Virus record (IMG/VR): IMGVR_UViG_3300012944_000057
Location: 1 to 25,466 of that record
Length of the DNA: 25,466 nt
Strand: one strand, 5' to 3'
Origin: a virus
The translations under genes and the position numbers were made by a program. Positions within the stretch are counted from its first letter, which is position 1; each line of letters begins with the position of its first letter. Of the stretch, positions 10,649 through 24,858 are shown piece after piece. Below the pieces are notes generated by a model, which saw only the letters and a list, made by a program, of their open reading frames with translations, made no database searches and was not told the DNA's origin.

Positions 10649-12007
10649 CTACCGAGCAGCCAGGGTGACGAACGGGCCGTAGGTCGTTGAACCGCTCTTC
10701 GCTGCGATCGGCGCGCTCCACCAGGGCTGACCGCCCATGCGGAGAATGAACCGGAAGGCCGTGTGATCCGTGTCGAAGTAGACATGGATCGACACATCGG
10801 TCCGAAGGCCGCCGGACTTCAGGATCGCCGCGTACTGCTTGAGTGACGCGAAGATGATGTCGCCCACCGTTCCGACCGCCTTGCAGGCCTGCGTCGGGAT
10901 GATCGGCCGGCCGAGGAGCGTCGCGTAGGGCGATTGGCTCAATCCGCCCGGCGGCATCCAGACGAGAGTGCCACCCGTCGCGGCGCCCGCGGCTGCGGGA
11001 CCGACCTGAAGGCCAGCCCGCATGAGGAACGGCTCGACGTCCGGATGGCAGAGCCACACCGCGTCACGGCGCCAGCGGGCCGGCATGCGCGCCCACATGT
11101 TCGTGATGTTGATGCCGTGGATCGTGGCCGCGACCTGCGAGGCTTCCGCCGCCTGCGAGACCGTCGCCGGCGAGTTCAGGATGCCAAGCGGCATGCCGGC
11201 TCCCGTGCCGTTCACGATCGCGTCCGTGCACTTGAAGTCGATCACGTCGCCCGCCTTGCGCGGGATATACGTGTTCATCTGCGGCGCGTCTTCGAGGAGC
11301 TCGTCGGTCACCGGCACGAGGCAGGTGAGCTTGTTGACCTTGCAGGTCGTCGATTCGAGGGCGAGCTTCCGCTGCGTGAGCGTCGCCGCTTCGCCGTCCC
11401 AGAAGGCATTGATGCCAACCGAGCCCCAGGGCGTCGCCTCATCCTTCGGCCAGGTGACGGAGTTCGATCCGGTCTCGCTCTGGTCGCAGTACTGCAGGAG
11501 CGAATCATCGCCCAGGACCTTCTGCAGGATGGTGCTGCGAAACTCGGGCGGCACCGCGAACCCGCCGTCCGCGCCGACGCCTTCGGATCCGTAGGTCGTC
11601 GGAGCGTTGACGATGCGCGGGTCGGCCGCCCCGCCTTCGCCGATCGTCTTCACGGCCGAGAAATAGTCGCCCATGCTCTGCCAGCCCCACCGCCCGCGCT
11701 CGCCGGCGCTCGATCGAACGCTCTCGATGCGGCGCCCCTTGGCCCCGCCCTTGTCATCATCGACCGCGGCCACCACCGTTGCGGCGCTCTTGCGGCCGGC
11801 GCTTGCAGCGAGGCGGGCGTCCTGGCCGGCGAGCTTCTCGCGGCGTTTGATGTCGAGCTCGATCTTGTCGAACTCGGCGAAGATGCCTTCGAGCTCCGTC
11901 TGCTCCTCTTCCTTCAGGTCGCGCTTCTCGGCGTCCGCCGTGGCCTGGATTGCCTTCGCGGATTCCTGAAGCTCCGCGAGCCGGGCTCGCAGTTCTTCGA
12001 TGGTCAT
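10649..12007 (-). CDS. Major capsid protein (HK97 fold) with N-terminal scaffold domain
   Basis: It encodes 452 residues from ATG 12007, with GAGGTGA five bases upstream. A reading from 12058 would include a terminator, so I reject it. Residues 1-65 (MTIEELRARLAELQESAKAI ... FDKIELDIKRREKL) are a charged coiled coil like the HK97 delta domain, which scaffolds the procapsid and is removed by the protease encoded just upstream. The mature part probably begins near residue 105-115 (GWQSMGDYFSAVK). Typical features follow: YGSEGVGADGGFAVPPEF, DDSLLQYCDQSETGSNSVTWP, and the late LLGRPIIPTQACKAVG. It forms the icosahedral shell. The cleavage site is an estimate. Confidence 0.95.
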   Translation of the reverse strand: MTIEELRARLAELQESAKAIQATADAEKRDLKEEEQTELEGIFAEFDKIELDIKRREKLAGQDARLAASAGRKSAATVVAAVDDDKGGAKGRRIESVRSSAGERGRWGWQSMGDYFSAVKTIGEGGAADPRIVNAPTTYGSEGVGADGGFAVPPEFRSTILQKVLGDDSLLQYCDQSETGSNSVTWPKDEATPWGSVGINAFWDGEAATLTQRKLALESTTCKVNKLTCLVPVTDELLEDAPQMNTYIPRKAGDVIDFKCTDAIVNGTGAGMPLGILNSPATVSQAAEASQVAATIHGINITNMWARMPARWRRDAVWLCHPDVEPFLMRAGLQVGPAAAGAATGGTLVWMPPGGLSQSPYATLLGRPIIPTQACKAVGTVGDIIFASLKQYAAILKSGGLRTDVSIHVYFDTDHTAFRFILRMGGQPWWSAPIAAKSGSTTYGPFVTLAAR

Positions 12008-12025
12008 GGCGTCACCTCGTAGTGA

Positions 12026-12052
12026 AAATAAAAAAGCCGCCTTTAGGCGGCT
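12026..12052 (-). terminator. Intrinsic terminator-like hairpin before the capsid gene
   Basis: On the minus strand AGCCGCC TAAA GGCGGCT is followed by a T-rich tract (TTTTTATTTT). It lies between the protease stop (12079) and capsid start (12007). No space is left for a promoter between it and the capsid gene, so late transcription must read through it or it works in mRNA processing. Confidence 0.8.
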
Positions 12053-12078
12053 GCACACACACTGGGATAGCGCGAAGG

Positions 12079-12747
12079 CTACTTGCCCAGAACTCTCTTC
12101 AGGCGTCCGTCGTTCGCCGCGAGGCGGGCGCGGAATGGATTCGCTCTCGGCGCGTCGGCCGCGATCTGCATCTTCGGCACATTCTTGAATTGTGAGAGAT
12201 CGAAGCAGGCGGCCATCTGCAGCTCGTCGGTGATCTCATCGACGAAGCCGAACTTCTTCGCCTCTGAGGCATTCATCCATGTCTCGGCGTCGGCGAGATC
12301 GCTGATTTTCGGCGCCCCGAGTTCCGTGCGTTTGTCATAGGTCGCGATCATGTTCTCGCGTATCTGATCCAGCAGGTCGGCCTTCGATCGCAGATCCTCA
12401 GCCGAGCCGTACTGCCCGCTCATGGGGTTGTGGATCATCATCATCGCGTTGTCAGCCATGCGGATCGTGTCGCCCGCCATCGCGATGATCGAGGCGATCG
12501 AGGCGGCGAGTCCGTCGATGTCGACAATGACATCTGCCGGGTGCTGCTTCAGCACGTTGTAGATCGCGAAACCCTCGAACACATCCCCGCCTGGCGAATT
12601 GATGTGCACGTTCAGGACGTCGATCTTGCCGAGCGCTTTCACATCGTCGACGACGGTCCTCGCGGTGATGCCGCCGAGCCATCCGCCGATGACGTCGTAC
12701 AGGTAAATCTCTGCGCCCTTGGCCGCGGCACGGATTCGGTAATTCAT
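12079..12747 (-). CDS. ClpP-like head maturation protease
   Basis: It encodes 222 residues; ATG 12747 overlaps the portal stop (ATGA), and GAGGAG lies just upstream. It contains NVHINSPGGDVFEGFAIYN, the nucleophile motif GLAASIAS (Ser83), the His motif MMMIHNPMSGQYG (His106), and the ending DAETWMNASEAKKFGFVDEI. The third catalytic residue is probably Asp153 or Glu155, in the position where ClpP has its Asp. Phage proteins of this type (S14 family) cut the scaffold domain off the capsid protein during maturation. Position between portal and capsid is standard. The C-terminal 40 residues (from about 180) are basic and less conserved. Confidence 0.93.
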   Translation of the reverse strand: MNYRIRAAAKGAEIYLYDVIGGWLGGITARTVVDDVKALGKIDVLNVHINSPGGDVFEGFAIYNVLKQHPADVIVDIDGLAASIASIIAMAGDTIRMADNAMMMIHNPMSGQYGSAEDLRSKADLLDQIRENMIATYDKRTELGAPKISDLADAETWMNASEAKKFGFVDEITDELQMAACFDLSQFKNVPKMQIAADAPRANPFRARLAANDGRLKRVLGK

Positions 12748-14060
12748 TTGCTCCTCGCGGTGTTGAGCACGCGCCCCTCGCGAAGGGCGGCAATCAGTCG
12801 GTTCTCGATATCGGTGTAGCCTGGCTCATCCGGACTCGCTGGATTGACCGGCGCCGGCTTTGCAGACGTCTGCACCGGGCCCGCCTTCATGGCCTCGCGC
12901 GTCATCTGGTTCGCTGGCACAAGGTAGAGATTCCCGTTCGGGATCGGGTTCATTTCCTCGAGCTCGCGGATGTCGTTCGCCGAGAGCCAGCCCCACATCG
13001 AGCCGACGGCATAGGCGTCATATCTGGCCTTGAGGTCACCGCGCAGGAGCGCCGCAAGGTTGAACTTCGTGTAAAAGAGCCCGCGCTGCTGCCGGCCGAA
13101 GAGCTTGAGGTTTGCCTCCTCTTCGAACTGCGTGACGTAAAACTGCAGCGTATCGGTGACGTACTCGAGCGCCTGGTGCTCGATGTTGTTCCAGGTCGCA
13201 CGATCGAGCGCCGCGATCTTGTGCGGCGGCACCCCGTACCAGCGGCAGATCTCGAGCGTCTCGAACTTGCGCGACTCGAGGAACTGCGCCTCCTCGGGCG
13301 GGATCCCGATGCGCTCGTAGCCCATGCCCTCCTCGAGCACGATCGTCTTGAGGGCATTCTTGCCGCCGGTCCGCTTCTGCAGCGACTCCTCGAGATGCTT
13401 GCGCGCATCGGGGCCGAGCGTCTTTGGATGCTTCAGCGCGCCGCCGAGGTTCGCACCATTGCCGAAGAACGAGGCGCCGAACTGTTGCATCGCGACCCCG
13501 AGGCCGATCGACTGCGACGCCATCGCGATCACGCTATAGCCGATCAAACCATCGAAGCCGAGACCGCGGATGTGCAACATGTCTGCCGCTGGGATCAGAG
13601 AATCCCCGGCGCGATCATTCTTGACACGATAGACGATCGAGCCACCGTCCGCGCGCTCGACCCTCACGCGATCCGGCGTGATCGGCCAGAGCCAATAGGG
13701 GCGCCCCATCTGGTCGCGTTCGATCTCGCAGAACGCATTGCCCCACGTGAGCACATGCGCCGTGAGGATGTTCTTGAAGACCGCCGGCGTCATCTCCGGA
13801 TTCGGCTGATTGTGCAGCAGCCAGTAGACCGGATGCTCGCTCGATTCCTTCCGGCCCGTCTTCGTCTTCTGATAGACGCACCAGGGAAGCGTCGCCATCG
13901 ATTTCGAGATGACGCTGACGCACGCCCACACCGTCGAATAGGTGAGCGCACTCTCCTCGTCGACGTTCTGCCCGGCCTGCGTCATCTGCGTGAGCCAGCG
14001 CTTCGTCTGGATCGGACGGAAGCGCTGCGCGAGATTGATCAGCCGGTCGAGCCAGTTCAT
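12744..14060 (-). CDS. Portal protein (HK97 family)
   Basis: It encodes 438 residues from ATG 14060, which overlaps the terminase stop as ATGA. The longer reading from 14123 extends into the terminase gene and is rejected. Family features are SALTYSTVWACVSVISKSMA (38-57), TWGNAFCEIERD, and the later GIPPEEAQFLESRKF (252-266), RWYGVPPHKI (273-282) and ATWNNIEHQ (288-296). These are typical of HK97-type portals. The dodecameric ring sits at one vertex, takes the DNA during packaging and binds the connector. The last 45 residues are a Pro- and Ala-rich linker plus a short helix. Confidence 0.95.
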   Translation of the reverse strand: MNWLDRLINLAQRFRPIQTKRWLTQMTQAGQNVDEESALTYSTVWACVSVISKSMATLPWCVYQKTKTGRKESSEHPVYWLLHNQPNPEMTPAVFKNILTAHVLTWGNAFCEIERDQMGRPYWLWPITPDRVRVERADGGSIVYRVKNDRAGDSLIPAADMLHIRGLGFDGLIGYSVIAMASQSIGLGVAMQQFGASFFGNGANLGGALKHPKTLGPDARKHLEESLQKRTGGKNALKTIVLEEGMGYERIGIPPEEAQFLESRKFETLEICRWYGVPPHKIAALDRATWNNIEHQALEYVTDTLQFYVTQFEEEANLKLFGRQQRGLFYTKFNLAALLRGDLKARYDAYAVGSMWGWLSANDIRELEEMNPIPNGNLYLVPANQMTREAMKAGPVQTSAKPAPVNPASPDEPGYTDIENRLIAALREGRVLNTARSK

Positions 14061-15652
14061 ATCATCAAGAAGCCTCGTGATTCGTAGACGCTCGGGCCAC
14101 TCTGCTGCGCCTTCGACGCGCAACGCACTGCCATCGCGAGCGCGACGACGCCGTCGATGCGCCCGGTAGATTTGCCGGGGCGCTTGTCAAACTTCCGCGC
14201 GCCGGTCGGATCCATGGTCGTTGCCGCATTCGCGGCGCACATCGTCATCACGGGATTCTTCTGCACGCGCAGCGTCCGGTTGAAGATGCCCGTCTCGAGC
14301 ATCTCGACCGCCGGGCTCATGTCCTGGTAGCCCTGCCCGTGTGGCACCAGGATGAACTCCGGATTCCCCTTTGGTTCCTCGCCGTCCTTGACGATCTCGA
14401 CCGCAAGGCCGAGTTCCTCGAACTCCCGCAGGAGGTCATCGATGCGCCAGCGATCGAAGGCGATCGCCTTGAGATTGACCTTCGCGCGAATCTCCACGAT
14501 CCGCTGCGCGACCCAGGCGTAATCGATCGACCGTCCAGGCGTCGTCGCGAGGTGGCCTTCCTTTTTCCACTGCGTGTAGGGCACGCGGTCGCGATCCTCG
14601 CGTTCTCGAATCCCTTCCTCGGGAGCCCAGAACATCGGGATCGCATCGACGCCGATGTCCGTCTGGAACGTCAGCACGAGCGCCGTGAGATCGTTCTTCC
14701 CCGAGAGATCAAGGCCTCCCCATGCATCCTGGTCGGCGTACTCCTCGAGCTTGAGAAAGCATTCGCAGGCCAGCCAATCCGAGGAGCTGATCCAGGCTGC
14801 CTCGGCATCGACACGCTGATTGAGATAGAGATTCCGGAACGTTGATTCGGCGCCTGGCATGCGCTTCGCGCGTGCAGCGAAGGTGCGCATTTCCTCGAGG
14901 CTTCGGAAGTCTCCGAGAGCCGGATTCGCGAGCGGCCAGTTCTGCTCGTCCCACGCATCCGCCTGCATGGGAACTTCGAAGACGAAGGCCTTGAACGTCG
15001 GATCTTGAATCGTTCCTGCAGAGACTTTATTACCGTAGTCCGTGAGCTCCGACATCAAATGGAGCGGATCCGCGCTCTGCGTCGAGATGATCCATGTCAG
15101 CGGCTCGGCGCGCGCGCCCATCGACGTCGTGAGCACATCGTACAATTTTCGATTCGGCGCCTGGGCGAGTTCGTCGTAAAGAATCACGCTCGCATTGAAG
15201 CCGTGCTTCGTCTTCGACTCGCTCGAGATCGCCTGGTAGAACGAGCCGCTGCGATAATGAATGATCCGCTTCTGCCCATCCATCACATTGAGCCGCGAGA
15301 TGAACTCTGGCTCCATCGCCACCATAGCCGACGCGGCGTTGAAAATTTGCGTCGCCTGTTCCTTATCAGCCGCGCAGGAATAAATCTGCCCGTTGAGCTC
15401 GGCGACAGGTCCGCACAGGTGCGCGAGGCAAAGCGCCGCGATCAGTTCGGTCTTGCCGTTCTTTCGACCCATGCTTAAGAGCGCCGTGCGGCAAATGCGC
15501 CGGCCGTTCTTGTCACAAGGGTCATAGACCTCGCGGATGATTTTCTTTTGCCAGTCGCGGAGTCTGAAGAGCTTGCCGGCAAATGGGCCCGCTGTGTTTC
15601 GGCAATGCTCTTCGATAAACGCAATTACTTCGTCGGCCCGCCCTCGAAGAAT
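14057..15652 (-). CDS. Terminase large subunit (start uncertain)
   Basis: The motor ATPase and nuclease cuts and packages DNA. Numbering from ATT 15652 (531 residues): Walker A GRKNGKT 62-68, Walker B VILYDE 156-161, coupling motif STQS 190-193, and nuclease acids in GGLDLSGKNDLTAL (Asp315), AIAFDRW (Asp400) and RIDGVVALA (Asp500). The start is a problem. The family's N-terminus begins about ten residues before VIAFIEEHC, but there is no ATG, GTG or TTG between GTG 15787 and the ATG of residue 61. Starts at GTG 15862 or 15787 would overlap the small subunit gene by 238 or 163 bases and add an Arg/Gly-rich peptide that looks out of frame. ATT 15652 follows GAAGGG; ATT 15625 overlaps the upstream stop as TAATT. 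The enzyme call is certain; the 5' end is not. Confidence 0.9.
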   Translation of the reverse strand: MLRGRADEVIAFIEEHCRNTAGPFAGKLFRLRDWQKKIIREVYDPCDKNGRRICRTALLSMGRKNGKTELIAALCLAHLCGPVAELNGQIYSCAADKEQATQIFNAASAMVAMEPEFISRLNVMDGQKRIIHYRSGSFYQAISSESKTKHGFNASVILYDELAQAPNRKLYDVLTTSMGARAEPLTWIISTQSADPLHLMSELTDYGNKVSAGTIQDPTFKAFVFEVPMQADAWDEQNWPLANPALGDFRSLEEMRTFAARAKRMPGAESTFRNLYLNQRVDAEAAWISSSDWLACECFLKLEEYADQDAWGGLDLSGKNDLTALVLTFQTDIGVDAIPMFWAPEEGIREREDRDRVPYTQWKKEGHLATTPGRSIDYAWVAQRIVEIRAKVNLKAIAFDRWRIDDLLREFEELGLAVEIVKDGEEPKGNPEFILVPHGQGYQDMSPAVEMLETGIFNRTLRVQKNPVMTMCAANAATTMDPTGARKFDKRPGKSTGRIDGVVALAMAVRCASKAQQSGPSVYESRGFLMI

Positions 15653-16089
15653 AGGCCCTTCTGTTTTTCCGCTGCCTTTGCGGCCTTCCCTGCCGGCACG
15701 CTTGAAACGCGGCGGGCCGGGCCTATGCCCAGCCGGTCGCCGAGCTGCACCATCTGAGCGTGAGCTTCTCGCAGCACCTGCAGCCACGGGTTTCTTTTTG
15801 GACCGAAGTCGGTCTTTAGAATCTCGCCTTCCGCCGCGATTTGATCCTTTGCCTTTTGCCACCGTGCGACCGCCGTGCAGTAAGCGCCGAGATGTTGCTC
15901 GTCGGCGGACTTGAAGTAGCCAGGCGGGAACGTCGCGAGCACGCGGCGCCAGACTTTCCGCTCGAGCGCGCTCAATCCGCCAGGAATTTCCGCGAATTCG
16001 TCATTCGTCGGAAGAGAAATGACTTGTGAAGCCGTCCCTTCCAGCTGCCTCAGCAGGTAAGGTTTTGGACTGGGACCCCTAAGACCCAT
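15625..16089 (-). CDS. Terminase small subunit (P27 family)
   Basis: It encodes 154 residues from ATG 16089. The start MGLRGPSPKPYLLRQLEGT is the hallmark of P27-type small terminases. LSALERKVWRRVLATFPPGY and then the helix ADEQHLGAYCTAVARWQKAKDQIAAEG follow, with NPWLQVLREAHAQMVQLGDRLGIGP near the end. It binds the packaging site on DNA and stimulates the large subunit. The gene before it encodes an HNH protein, the order found in HK97-like cos phages. Upstream is a gap of 71 bases with two copies of CTTACAA just before the start (16093-16107). Confidence 0.95.
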   Translation of the reverse strand: MGLRGPSPKPYLLRQLEGTASQVISLPTNDEFAEIPGGLSALERKVWRRVLATFPPGYFKSADEQHLGAYCTAVARWQKAKDQIAAEGEILKTDFGPKRNPWLQVLREAHAQMVQLGDRLGIGPARRVSSVPAGKAAKAAEKQKGLFFEGGPTK

Positions 16090-20915: not shown

Positions 20916-21053
20916 TCAGCGAACCACGGCCGCGGGCAGTGACATTGCAGGTCGATCGGAGCGTTCCCGAGTTTCCACGGCAGGCGCGATGAGGCTCCCC
21001 CGTGCAACATCGAGCGAGCAGACGAATCCACCCGCGGCTGTGGTGCGTTTCAC
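20916..21053 (-). CDS. Candidate small ORF (45 aa), GTGA-coupled
   Basis: GTG 21053 overlaps the stop of the secreted protein as GTGA, and the frame ends at TGA 20916, ten bases before the Kelch start. The sequence begins MKRTTAAGGFVCSLDVARG and ends SLPAAVVR. Without it the 143 bases would be a rare gap in a tightly packed operon. There is no clear ribosome binding site and no family, so it could be chance. The Kelch ribosome binding site overlaps its last codons. Confidence 0.4.
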   Translation of the reverse strand: MKRTTAAGGFVCSLDVARGSLIAPAVETRERSDRPAMSLPAAVVR

Positions 21054-22393
21054 GGCGGCCAGCCGCCGACCGGCGCATCTTGGCGAAGGCACTCGGCGAA
21101 GGCGTTGAAGGGCAGACGATAGCCCTGCGCATCGGGCGCGGGATAGACGCGCTGGTAGCGCTTGCCAGAGTCCGTCACCTTGCGCCCGAGGAGGCACGGC
21201 TCGCTCGCGGAGACCGTGATCGGCGCGCCGTCGCGCAGAAGCGGCACCCCGAGCGTGCCATCGGCGTTGCTGACGTAGACCGCCCCGCCGACCGCGACGA
21301 AGCGCGGCAGGAATCTCTGGCCGAGATCATCGGCAATCGCGGCATCGGCTGCCGTCAGCTTCGCCTTGCAGCGCTGCCACTGGCGATCCGCATTCGCATG
21401 CGTGAGCACGAAACTATCGACGCACATCGCATAGGCGCCCGGGTTGTAGGACGTGCGATAGCGCGCGACATAGTCGGGGCCGTCGACGAGCCACACCTTG
21501 ACGTGTCCGTCGGGTGGGGGCTGCTCGACGAACGGGCAATTCGGCTCCGTCGGGTAGCACGCGGGGAGCGGCGCCTCGGTGATGACGGGGAGCGCGGGCG
21601 GCTCGCCCTCAATGGTGACGAAGTAGGTCGCGGGGCGCCCATCGGCCGTCCTCACGCACGCGATGCGGTACTCAGCTGTCTGAATCGCTGGGCCGGGCGC
21701 GGGGAGCGTCGTGCTACCAGGGTTCCCGGTCGGCGCGCCGGGGAAGTCCGTGACGCAAGTTGCCGCTACGTCGCTCGCCTGCCAGTTGATCGTGATCGGC
21801 GTCCCGACGGGCTTCGTCATCTGCGAGCCGGTGGGCGTTACGGTAATCGTGAGCGGCGGGAGCGGCGCCGTACACGCTCCCGCTGGCGCACTCGTCGGTA
21901 GCCAGGCCCCGGCGACCCAATTCGGCGCCACACAGGTGTACGTGCGCGTCTGCGTCCAACTGCCGAGAAGCGGCGCACACGAAATGCCCTGCGTATCGTC
22001 GGCGGGCTTGGGCGTCGCGCACGTCGGCGGCGGAGCGGCGTTGTTTGCCACGGTGAAGGAGGCTTTCGCCCGTACCGTCACGCCATCGCCGTTCCTCGCC
22101 TCGATGACGTGCGGGCCGTCGGCGACGGTCTTGCTGTCCCACAGGAAATTGTCGCCGCCGAAGTCATACGGGCACCCGCCTTCCGGGTTGCCGTAGAGCT
22201 TCGCATCGAGAAAGAACTTCACGCCAGGCGAGGCGCACGGATTCATGCGTACGTTGATCTTGCCCTTCACCGCCGCGACGTCGAGCTCGGCGTGAACGCC
22301 TGCGACCGTCGCTGCATATTGGAGCGTCGCGGCTTCGGCTGCATGCTCCATCGACGCGACGAACATCAGCGCCGCGATCCAGAAAGCGCGCAT
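21050..22393 (-). CDS. Secreted cysteine-rich protein with Ig-like domains
   Basis: It encodes 447 residues. I chose ATG 22393 (GAGG just upstream), because it begins a signal peptide, MRAFWIAALMFVASMEHAAEA, with a likely cut near residue 21. The longer reading to 22603 crosses two terminators. The mature part has an Ig-like domain (24-116; FFLDAKLYGNP, FLWDSKTVADGPHVIEARN), a segment at 125-174 with W-T-Q-T-R-T-Y-T-C like thrombospondin type 1, a second Ig-like domain (181-262; ITVTPTGSQMTKPVGTPITI), and a C-terminal part of about 170 residues. There are 14 Cys (53, 74, 125, 139, 154, 174, 213, 246, 279, 286, 324, 342, 400, 435), which suggests disulfides in the periplasm or outside. It is the first late gene. 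Its role is unknown: superinfection exclusion, adhesion or host-surface change are possible. Confidence 0.75.
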   Translation of the reverse strand: MRAFWIAALMFVASMEHAAEAATLQYAATVAGVHAELDVAAVKGKINVRMNPCASPGVKFFLDAKLYGNPEGGCPYDFGGDNFLWDSKTVADGPHVIEARNGDGVTVRAKASFTVANNAAPPPTCATPKPADDTQGISCAPLLGSWTQTRTYTCVAPNWVAGAWLPTSAPAGACTAPLPPLTITVTPTGSQMTKPVGTPITINWQASDVAATCVTDFPGAPTGNPGSTTLPAPGPAIQTAEYRIACVRTADGRPATYFVTIEGEPPALPVITEAPLPACYPTEPNCPFVEQPPPDGHVKVWLVDGPDYVARYRTSYNPGAYAMCVDSFVLTHANADRQWQRCKAKLTAADAAIADDLGQRFLPRFVAVGGAVYVSNADGTLGVPLLRDGAPITVSASEPCLLGRKVTDSGKRYQRVYPAPDAQGYRLPFNAFAECLRQDAPVGGWPP

Positions 22394-22407
22394 GGAGCCT
22401 CGCGATG

Positions 22408-22435
22408 AAAAAATGGCCCGCTTCGCAGGCGGGCC
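22408..22435 (-). terminator. Intrinsic terminator upstream of the secreted protein gene
   Basis: On the minus strand GGCCCGC CTGCGAA GCGGGCC is followed by A and then six T. The stem is 7 bp. It lies only 15 bases before the late gene start at 22393, so genes after it require readthrough. Confidence 0.87.
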
Positions 22436-22547
22436 AGTCGTTTCGAGCTCGCCGAGGGGAACGGCGGGCCATGGGAGATAGGTCGCCCGGTAGTCGCGGC
22501 CTAAGCAATAGATGCTGATGGAGTGTGTGCCGGGCCGGGCGTCGGAC

Positions 22548-22575
22548 AAGAAAAAGCCCGCGCGTGGCGGGCTTT
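22548..22575 (-). terminator. Intrinsic terminator after the late promoter candidate
   Basis: On the minus strand AAAGCCCGC CACGC GCGGGCTTT extends into five T and CTT. The stem is 9 bp. It lies about 33 bases beyond the predicted start of transcription, as a late-leader terminator would. Confidence 0.87.
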
Positions 22576-22615
22576 CCGGTTGCGTCGGGGGATACCTCCC
22601 CAACTCTGGGAGCGG

Positions 22616-22645
22616 AAACTACCCCCAAGTGGGCCGCCCCGTCAA
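22616..22645 (-). promoter_or_regulatory. Candidate sigma-70 late promoter
   Basis: On the minus strand the -35 TTGACG (22645-22640) matches consensus at five of six bases. An 18-base spacer leads to TAGTTT (22621-22616), which matches TATAAT at three of six. The weak -10 box would suit a Q-controlled promoter. The predicted start of transcription is near 22608. Confidence 0.42.
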
Positions 22646-22655
22646 GGTCCTTGAT

Positions 22656-23231
22656 TCAGTTGGCGGATTTTTCGAGCGCGTTGAGCTTTCGCGCAAGGTG
22701 CGAGATGGCCTCGCTCGACCAGCCGCAGGCGATGCGGTGCGCGCCCTCATAGCGTGTCGACCAGCCCTCGCGCCATCGTGTCCAGGAGACCTGCGCGAGC
22801 GCGGCTCGACGGCGTGAGCTCAAGGTCCGAGCGCCGGCTGACTGGCATTGCGGACAGGCGAACGTCATCACTCCATTCGAGGTGTATCCGCGGCCCTTGC
22901 AAGGCACACACGGAACGGAACGCGGGGAGAGTACCTCATAGACAGCAAGCGCCGCGAAGTGCCGGCACCGCCAGAAGAGATCCGTGCCCTTCGCCGGCCA
23001 CGCATCGGCGACTGCGAAGTCGTGGATCTCGTCGGAGAGACGCTCCTCGAGCTCGGCCAGGCTGAAGAGGTCCAGCGTCTCGCGCACCATACCCATGAGG
23101 AACGGCCCGCGCGGCAGGTCTTTCAAAAGCGCGGCGAGCGGATATGCCGAAGCGATCATCGTGCCGTCCGGCAATTCGATCCGCTGGATGAAGCTCATGC
23201 CGAGGCGCTGCCAGCCCTTTTCGGGATTCAT
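22656..23231 (-). CDS. Q-like late antiterminator (zinc CxxC/CxxC)
   Basis: It encodes 191 residues; ATG 23231 overlaps the previous stop as ATGA. A helical N-terminal part (30-105; DLFWRCRHFAALAVYEVLS at its end) is followed by a zinc module C108-x2-C111 and C126-x2-C129 (CVPCKGRG ... CPQCQSAG). A basic helix-rich end follows (SSRRRAALAQVSWTRWREGW). This resembles the antitermination Q families of lambdoid phages (PF03589-like). Q joins RNA polymerase near the late promoter and lets it pass terminators. The candidate promoter and two terminators immediately downstream fit this role well. The alternative would be a DnaJ-like zinc protein, but no J domain is present. Confidence 0.72.
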   Translation of the reverse strand: MNPEKGWQRLGMSFIQRIELPDGTMIASAYPLAALLKDLPRGPFLMGMVRETLDLFSLAELEERLSDEIHDFAVADAWPAKGTDLFWRCRHFAALAVYEVLSPRSVPCVPCKGRGYTSNGVMTFACPQCQSAGARTLSSRRRAALAQVSWTRWREGWSTRYEGAHRIACGWSSEAISHLARKLNALEKSAN

Positions 23232-24062: not shown

Positions 24063-24361
24063 GTCGTTGCCTCCGGTTGTGTTTCTTTTGCTCGCGTCCA
24101 ATCCGGCGCCCATCCCCAGTGCTTCACCGGAATGACGCCGCTCGGGAGCCTCGGCGCCTGCTCCGCGCGCAGCTCCCGCTCGCGACGCTGAATGCTTGAA
24201 GGATTCGGCTTCTTCGGTCGCGCCTGGCGGATAAGACGATCATCGCGATCGCCGCGCATCCAGCGGCCGTAGATGGTGTCCCGATTGAGGCTGTATCTCC
24301 GGCAGAGATAGGGGAGCGTGCACGCCATGCCGTAGAGCGTGTAGTCGGCGCGGCGCGTCAT
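24059..24361 (-). CDS. Putative helix-turn-helix protein
   Basis: It encodes 100 residues from ATG 24361, which forms an ATGA overlap with the RuvC stop. The longer reading to 24619 lies within the RuvC gene. Residues about 15-45 (LPYLCRRYSLNRDTIYGRWM) look like a helix-turn-helix with a recognition helix NRDTIYGRW, followed by RGDRDDRLI. The rest is basic (QARPKKPNPSSIQRRERELR) and ends WGWAPDWTRAKETQ. The protein is probably a DNA-binding factor, perhaps a regulator of the operon. No partner domain is visible. Confidence 0.65.
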   Translation of the reverse strand: MTRRADYTLYGMACTLPYLCRRYSLNRDTIYGRWMRGDRDDRLIRQARPKKPNPSSIQRRERELRAEQAPRLPSGVIPVKHWGWAPDWTRAKETQPEATT

Positions 24362-24858
24362 GCGGACCTCGGTGCGCGTTCGCGCGCATAGAGTGCGATG
24401 AGGAGTGCCTCGGCGCGGCCGTGATGTTTCGCGAGGCCGAGCTCGGCGAGCGGGAACGTGAGCCGCGCCTTGTCGAGCGAGGCGCGCTTGCGCTGTGTAT
24501 CGGTGAGTTTCGTGCCGGTTGTGATAAGTCCTAGCGCCCGCTTCCAGGTCGCTGGAGCGATGAGTTCGATCGGCAGCGACATCGTCTGCAGGGTCGCGAG
24601 AATCGATCCGAGCGTACAACCCTGGCTGAAGCCGCCGGCGCTACCCGTCTTCGGCATCGCGTGGACGAGTTCGACGTAAGCGCGTGTCGGCGAACCCGGC
24701 GGTCGTGTGATCAGGATGTCGCGCAGGGCGCGTCCATCAATCCATGCGAGCTTTCGAATGCGAATCACCGGCAGATCGACGAGAAGCTCGATCGAGCCGC
24801 TTGGACCCAGCACGGCGAGCGCGCCTGTGAGCCCTGGATCGATGCCGATGATGCGCAT
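24358..24858 (-). CDS. RuvC-like Holliday junction resolvase
   Basis: It encodes 166 residues; ATG 24858 forms TGATG with the previous stop. The RNase H fold starts MRIIGIDPGLTGALAV with Asp7, the first catalytic acid. AYVELVHAMP gives Glu63. The end GLAKHHGRAEALLIALYA holds His145/His146 and Glu150, in the place of the last acids of cellular RuvC; a His in that site is known in some RuvC proteins. GFSQGCTLGSILATL (76-90) is typical of the phage type. It would cut branched DNA before packaging. The family is clear; the active-site variant is an observation. Confidence 0.88.
   Translation of the reverse strand: MRIIGIDPGLTGALAVLGPSGSIELLVDLPVIRIRKLAWIDGRALRDILITRPPGSPTRAYVELVHAMPKTGSAGGFSQGCTLGSILATLQTMSLPIELIAPATWKRALGLITTGTKLTDTQRKRASLDKARLTFPLAELGLAKHHGRAEALLIALYARERAPRSA

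Follow-up and report, generated by a model that had tools for sequence, protein, structure and literature searches.

We have analyzed a 25,466-base window (the whole stretch of DNA studied), a soil-type phage fragment whose record is a linear virus sequence. With a probability that we put at about 83%, its minus-strand gene at 22656-23231 encodes a Q-type processive antiterminator with the fold of lambda Q, and the next 262 bases are the target of this protein, comprising a sigma-70-type late promoter and two terminators. The original prediction placed a late-switch module at 22408-23231, and all of its elements are present there on the minus strand. The late-switch reading is supported by the match of the predicted protein fold to lambda Q and by relatives of the protein that lie ahead of the same promoter-terminator block. 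By analogy with lambda Q, 21Q, 82Q and AlpA (PMC6606751, PMC9371919, PMC7969949), RNA polymerase that starts near 22609 early in infection would be halted around +60 and +203; with Q acting, it would then transcribe the late operon as far as the left edge. It is from this analogy that we infer promoter activity, a pause, a binding site and antitermination.

Gene order and the promoter-terminator block

The early operon lies upstream of 22656 on the minus strand and consists of overlapping genes: an endonuclease VII-like gene, a RuvC-like Holliday junction resolvase gene (24358-24858; phrog_1770, E=8e-24), four small genes of unknown function and, in last position, the Q-type gene, which is predicted from its ORF, a profile link and a fold match. 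The start of the Q-type gene overlaps the stop of the gene upstream (ATGA). The minus strand also carries every gene between 22393 and the left edge, among them an ORF of 829 residues that is open at the window end. Plus-strand genes at this edge were considered and rejected, as codon-position GC and the open 829-residue ORF indicate a late operon running off the end. The late genes encode secreted-looking and Kelch-like proteins, terminase, portal, capsid and tail proteins. The first of them (21050-22393, minus strand, 447 residues) has a signal-peptide-like N-terminus, a GC3 of 0.83 and an ATG at 22393 preceded by GAGG. The gene of the terminase large subunit (14057-15862, minus strand; Pfam TerL) is HK97/HK022-like, with 42% identity to HK97 and HK022, and served both as the anchor of the late operon and as the bait for collecting a comparison set. 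Of the first two late products, both encoded on the minus strand, that of 22393-21050 is secreted-looking with a WTQTRTYTC-type stretch and that of 20906-19755 is Kelch-like; their genes occupy the place of the lambda lysis genes, and no lysis gene was recognised.

The late-promoter candidate (22616-22645, minus strand) begins ten bases past the Q-type gene and consists of TTGACG (22645-22640), an 18-base spacer and TAGTTT (22621-22616), with a predicted transcription start near 22609. It matches the consensus at 8 of 12 positions, a level reached by 6 sites on the minus strand and by 11.5 in shuffles; taken alone it is thus not above chance, its -10 element is poor, and no site was found at a stricter scan cut-off. 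What gives this candidate its weight is its position and its recurrence in relatives. The candidate Q-binding element would be in the promoter spacer, which is G-rich and ends in TTGGGGGTA, where the lambda spacer ends in TTGGGTA. Both TTGGGGGTA and the lambda sequence (L086, pR') abut the -10 element, and the zinc-less relatives described below are without the G run, which might be related to zinc-finger recognition. A short dyad, GGGGAGGTATCCCC (22588-22601, minus strand), falls among the first transcribed bases, around +9 to +22, and is a candidate place for the pause signal; no clear -10-like hexamer was seen. Neither a Q-binding element nor a -10-like pause sequence was identified with confidence in the region. 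The 15-mer TTGGGGGTAGTTTCC has 46 matches in IMG/VR, none of them in a similar context.

Terminator 1 (22550-22575, minus strand) has the hairpin AAAGCCCGC-CACGC-GCGGGCTTTTTC (-17.0 kcal/mol) followed by TTTTTC and starts from about +35. Terminator 2 (22407-22436, minus strand) has the hairpin TGGCCCGC-CTGCGAA-GCGGGCCATTTTTTC (-16.5 kcal/mol) followed by TTTTTTC, starts from about +174 and ends approximately 14 bases ahead of the first late ATG. A strict search for hairpin-plus-T sites over the whole window gave only three, all of them on the minus strand, and 20 shuffles gave none. Two of these sites fall in the 262-base gap after the Q-type gene, and this pair is beyond chance. A general terminator scan listed terminator 2 and missed terminator 1; the apparent reason is that some of the U-tract of the latter can be counted as G-U stem pairs. 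In an Rfam search of the gap nothing came near the gathering score, and the weak matches (Trp leader, isrK, rsmX) reflect the terminator hairpins.

Family searches and relatives of the Q-type protein

The Q-type protein has 191 residues, with a zinc module at residues 106-131 (22839-22916, minus strand) formed by the pairs C108-x2-C111 and C126-x2-C129. The original prediction counted the lack of a Q-family match among the outcomes that would speak against it. Taken literally, that outcome was obtained: no Pfam or NCBIfam model, PF03589 included, matched the protein at cut-off, and the link to the Q family was made instead through profile and fold comparison. Searches of PHROG, Pfam, NCBIfam and PDB sequences with this protein alone gave only zinc-knuckle noise and were set aside. 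The match to phrog_127 (E=0.027) begins at the zinc knuckle and is non-specific, since the same profile also matches 12-13 of 14 control genomes, archaeal ones included; across related contigs phrog_127 gave no match. Close homologues were found neither in IMG/VR nor in GTDB genomes nor in phages, the solved chains of AlpA and 21Q gave no profile match at E<=10, and contigs bearing the resolvase have no recognisable relative of the Q-type protein downstream. Judged by sequence, the protein is not filed in PF03589 because it falls below the cut-off of that family.

Relatives were found in a set of 80 prophages gathered by their terminase, in which the protein was compared with all ORFs. The best match (E=0.003) is a protein of 161 residues without the cysteine pairs, encoded in a prophage of a gammaproteobacterial symbiont (L145:8325-8810), 1.2-1.7 kb ahead of the terminase match. 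Further relatives of this protein occur in L149, L174, L175 and L176, and in the IMG/VR phage L187. An HMM of five zinc-less relatives (L145, L149, L174, L175 and L176), built without the window protein, picks that protein out of 16,000 ORFs at E=7.3e-5, with a lambda Q homologue as the match after it; when the L187 protein is added the E value becomes 2.7e-6. When compared with a 12-member profile of the lambda Q family, the window protein reached 74% and a score of 39 in hhalign; none of 60 shuffles that preserved the cysteines scored above 27, and none of 216 other ORFs carrying two CxxC pairs scored above 31. The C-terminal stretch from the zinc module to the helix-turn-helix aligns with lambda Q in hhalign, an alignment that HMMER alone misses. 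A further Q-like relative, split by a TAG stop, lies on the reverse strand in an apparently decayed, prophage-like region (L177:1420-1926).

The comparison of layout rests on L145, L149 and L187, in which the late region is intact; the surroundings in L174-L177 are decayed-looking or different and are uninformative on this point. In L145 a promoter of the form TTGACA-17-TAGCTT starts inside the end of the gene and is followed by the dyad TAGGGATAGTTCCCTA, a terminator from +28 and then the late genes. L149 has TTGACA-17-TAGGCT, the dyad TAGGGATAATTCCCTA and a terminator from +28, the dyads of both prophages lying at about the same distance as GGGGAGGTATCCCC. L187 combines TTGACA-17-TAGTAT with two terminators. 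The first runs from +16 (-18.0 kcal/mol); the other, from +69 (-16.5 kcal/mol), is close before an ATG and ahead of terminase-like genes. All three blocks precede late genes with TerS/TerL. Thus the promoter form and the terminators recur in relatives, the double terminator included. A search of IMG/VR for the promoter-plus-dyad pattern of L145 and L149 gave nothing beyond the two prophages themselves, so that the dyad in its exact form is not widespread. In L187 two opposite-strand genes (L187:5658-7339) separate the Q-like gene from the late promoter, so a Q gene need not lie next to its target.

These layouts bear on the strongest competing explanation, in which the gene does encode a Q-fold regulator but the hairpins simply mark the end of the early operon, with transcription of the late genes beginning at a promoter further down. 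The Q-type gene is indeed the last of its operon and the promoter candidate is unremarkable alone, but two strong terminators exceed what the end of an operon needs, and the second is placed immediately before the late ATG. Moreover, the relatives keep a promoter ahead of the terminators, and in L187 the block adjoins the late genes despite the two genes between it and the Q gene. We consider this explanation unlikely, and prefer to read the block as the target of the Q-type protein.

Predicted fold and the zinc module

The protein was modelled by AlphaFold from an alignment of four sequences, the window protein and its relatives from L145, L149 and L187; lambda Q was absent from the alignment and templates were unused. 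The model has a pLDDT of 65 (82-88 in the helical core) and a pTM of 0.65. A single-sequence model (pLDDT 36) was discarded. Among approximately 350,000 PDB chains searched with Foldseek, lambda Q (7ubj_B) ranks first, with a weak E value of its own (0.31). When the fold matches were realigned, the best six were the six lambda Q entries, with Z scores of 7.4-7.9 that, being below 8, are middling for a helical protein; the next entry, which is unrelated, scored 5.1. The realignment with lambda Q is collinear over residues 48-184. Residues 1-56, the presumed counterpart of the N-terminal nozzle segment that lambda Q places in the RNA exit channel, are modelled mostly at low confidence. The C-terminal helices, residues 139-190 (22662-22817, minus strand), align to the C-terminal part of lambda Q and in the model are equivalent to its helix-turn-helix, presumably the DNA-binding part; a W..RY motif in this region is conserved in all relatives in the alignment. 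The medium-confidence model thus agrees, as a prediction, with the core and helix-turn-helix fold of lambda Q. AlpA and 21Q are absent among the fold matches listed, an absence that is uninformative about structural likeness. The second-ranked match in BFVD carries the annotation 'Antitermination protein Q'. The closest viral predicted structure there is entry M4MCI9 (E 0.0039, probability 1.00), which is nameless in the tables.

In our best reading the protein belongs to a separate sequence family with the lambda Q fold, a family apparently new to description, and it probably works like lambda Q. A protein with a DNA-binding core like that of lambda Q could instead be an activator of the late promoter, for which a helix-turn-helix and a zinc module would be suitable, and the -10 element is weak. 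Activation leaves the two terminators between promoter and gene unexplained, and those members of the fold group that have been characterised (lambda Q, 82Q and AlpA) are antiterminators (PMC9371919), which makes this alternative highly improbable by comparison with antitermination. It is hardly credible that the gene encodes an unrelated small zinc protein with coincidental similarity and layout, for although a direct sequence comparison matches lambda Q only weakly, and false family matches are common with zinc knuckles, the zinc-less relatives, the profile E values, the fold ranking and the common layout are all independent of the zinc motif.

The zinc module and the position of the gene had been taken as the marks of a Q protein. 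The zinc module is weak evidence for this, given the non-specificity of phrog_127 and nearest relatives that are zinc-less. The two CxxC pairs sit between the helical core and the helix-turn-helix, as in lambda Q, forming a putative zinc insert, and in the alignments this insert is missing from L145, L149, L174, L175, L176 and L187. An inserted zinc finger is also what sets lambda Q apart from 82Q and AlpA (PMC9371919), and the same contrast recurs here within one alignable set, that of the window protein and its zinc-less relatives. From the alignment and the predicted fold, the zinc finger would be an optional insert and not a family hallmark, because the relatives lack it while the window protein has it. 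A tentative extension, with the odds somewhat against it, is that this separate Q family carries zinc as a plug-in on a common core and helix-turn-helix, in a series from zinc-bearing to zinc-less members, and that zinc tunes promoter recognition and is dispensable for antitermination. A lambda Q core with or without zinc offers a way to ask which parts serve antitermination and which DNA recognition, and how such unlike Q families arose.

Comparison with known antitermination systems

Known Q proteins bind DNA between the -35 and -10 elements, load on polymerase at a -10-like early pause and narrow the channel through which the RNA leaves, which keeps terminator hairpins from forming (PMC6606751, PMC9371919); AlpA works likewise, whether its promoter is followed by one terminator or by two (PMC7969949). 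The closest likeness is to lambda Q and its pR'-tR' region. The window protein is predicted to have the fold of lambda Q (PDB 4mo1, 7ubj-7ubn) and its order of parts, namely an N-terminal segment, the helical core, the zinc insert and a C-terminal helix-turn-helix, although PF03589 fails and phrog_127 is not specific for the window protein, and the loop between the CxxC pairs has 14 residues compared to 22 in lambda Q. In both phages Q follows an early operon that bears a resolvase gene, a promoter lies just past the Q gene, and a terminator stands ahead of the late genes, as expected from the lambda plan proposed originally. The RuvC-like resolvase gene in the operon that ends with Q recalls the lambdoid phages, where NinG or RusA comes before Q.

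The 82Q and 21Q families of lambdoid phages have an equivalent role and the same promoter-terminator plan, and Q proteins are stated to form three families that have no significant mutual sequence similarity (PMC9371919). QuuD of DLP12, a Q homologue of 127 residues, matches phrog_79, phrog_943 and phrog_753, none of which is listed for the window protein or its relatives, a difference seen at the level of these phrog models. AlpA of Pseudomonas aeruginosa acts by antitermination at alpBCDE and PA0807, where one terminator (alpB) or two (PA0807) come after the promoter (PMC7969949, PMC9371919). No sequence match between AlpA and the window protein was found; AlpA is without a zinc insert, and its binding motif, GGGACGN5GGTA, is absent at the published spacing in the window module. 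In environmental phages, a small gene close to the terminase with a promoter-terminator block next to it can lead to antiterminators and late promoters that are beyond the reach of family models.

The number of terminators, two in the window compared to the single tR' located approximately 200 bases down in lambda, had been put forward as a departure from the lambda plan. Both terminators are present, but the arrangement is not novel: two are predicted at PA0807, which is under AlpA control (PMC7969949), and two are found in L187. The third strong terminator of the window (12052-12020, minus strand; AGCCGCC-TAAA-GGCGGCT-TTTTT) is inside the late operon, with the gene at 12079-12747 on one side and that of the putative major capsid protein (10649-12058) on the other, where it may be a tuner of capsid expression or another Q target.
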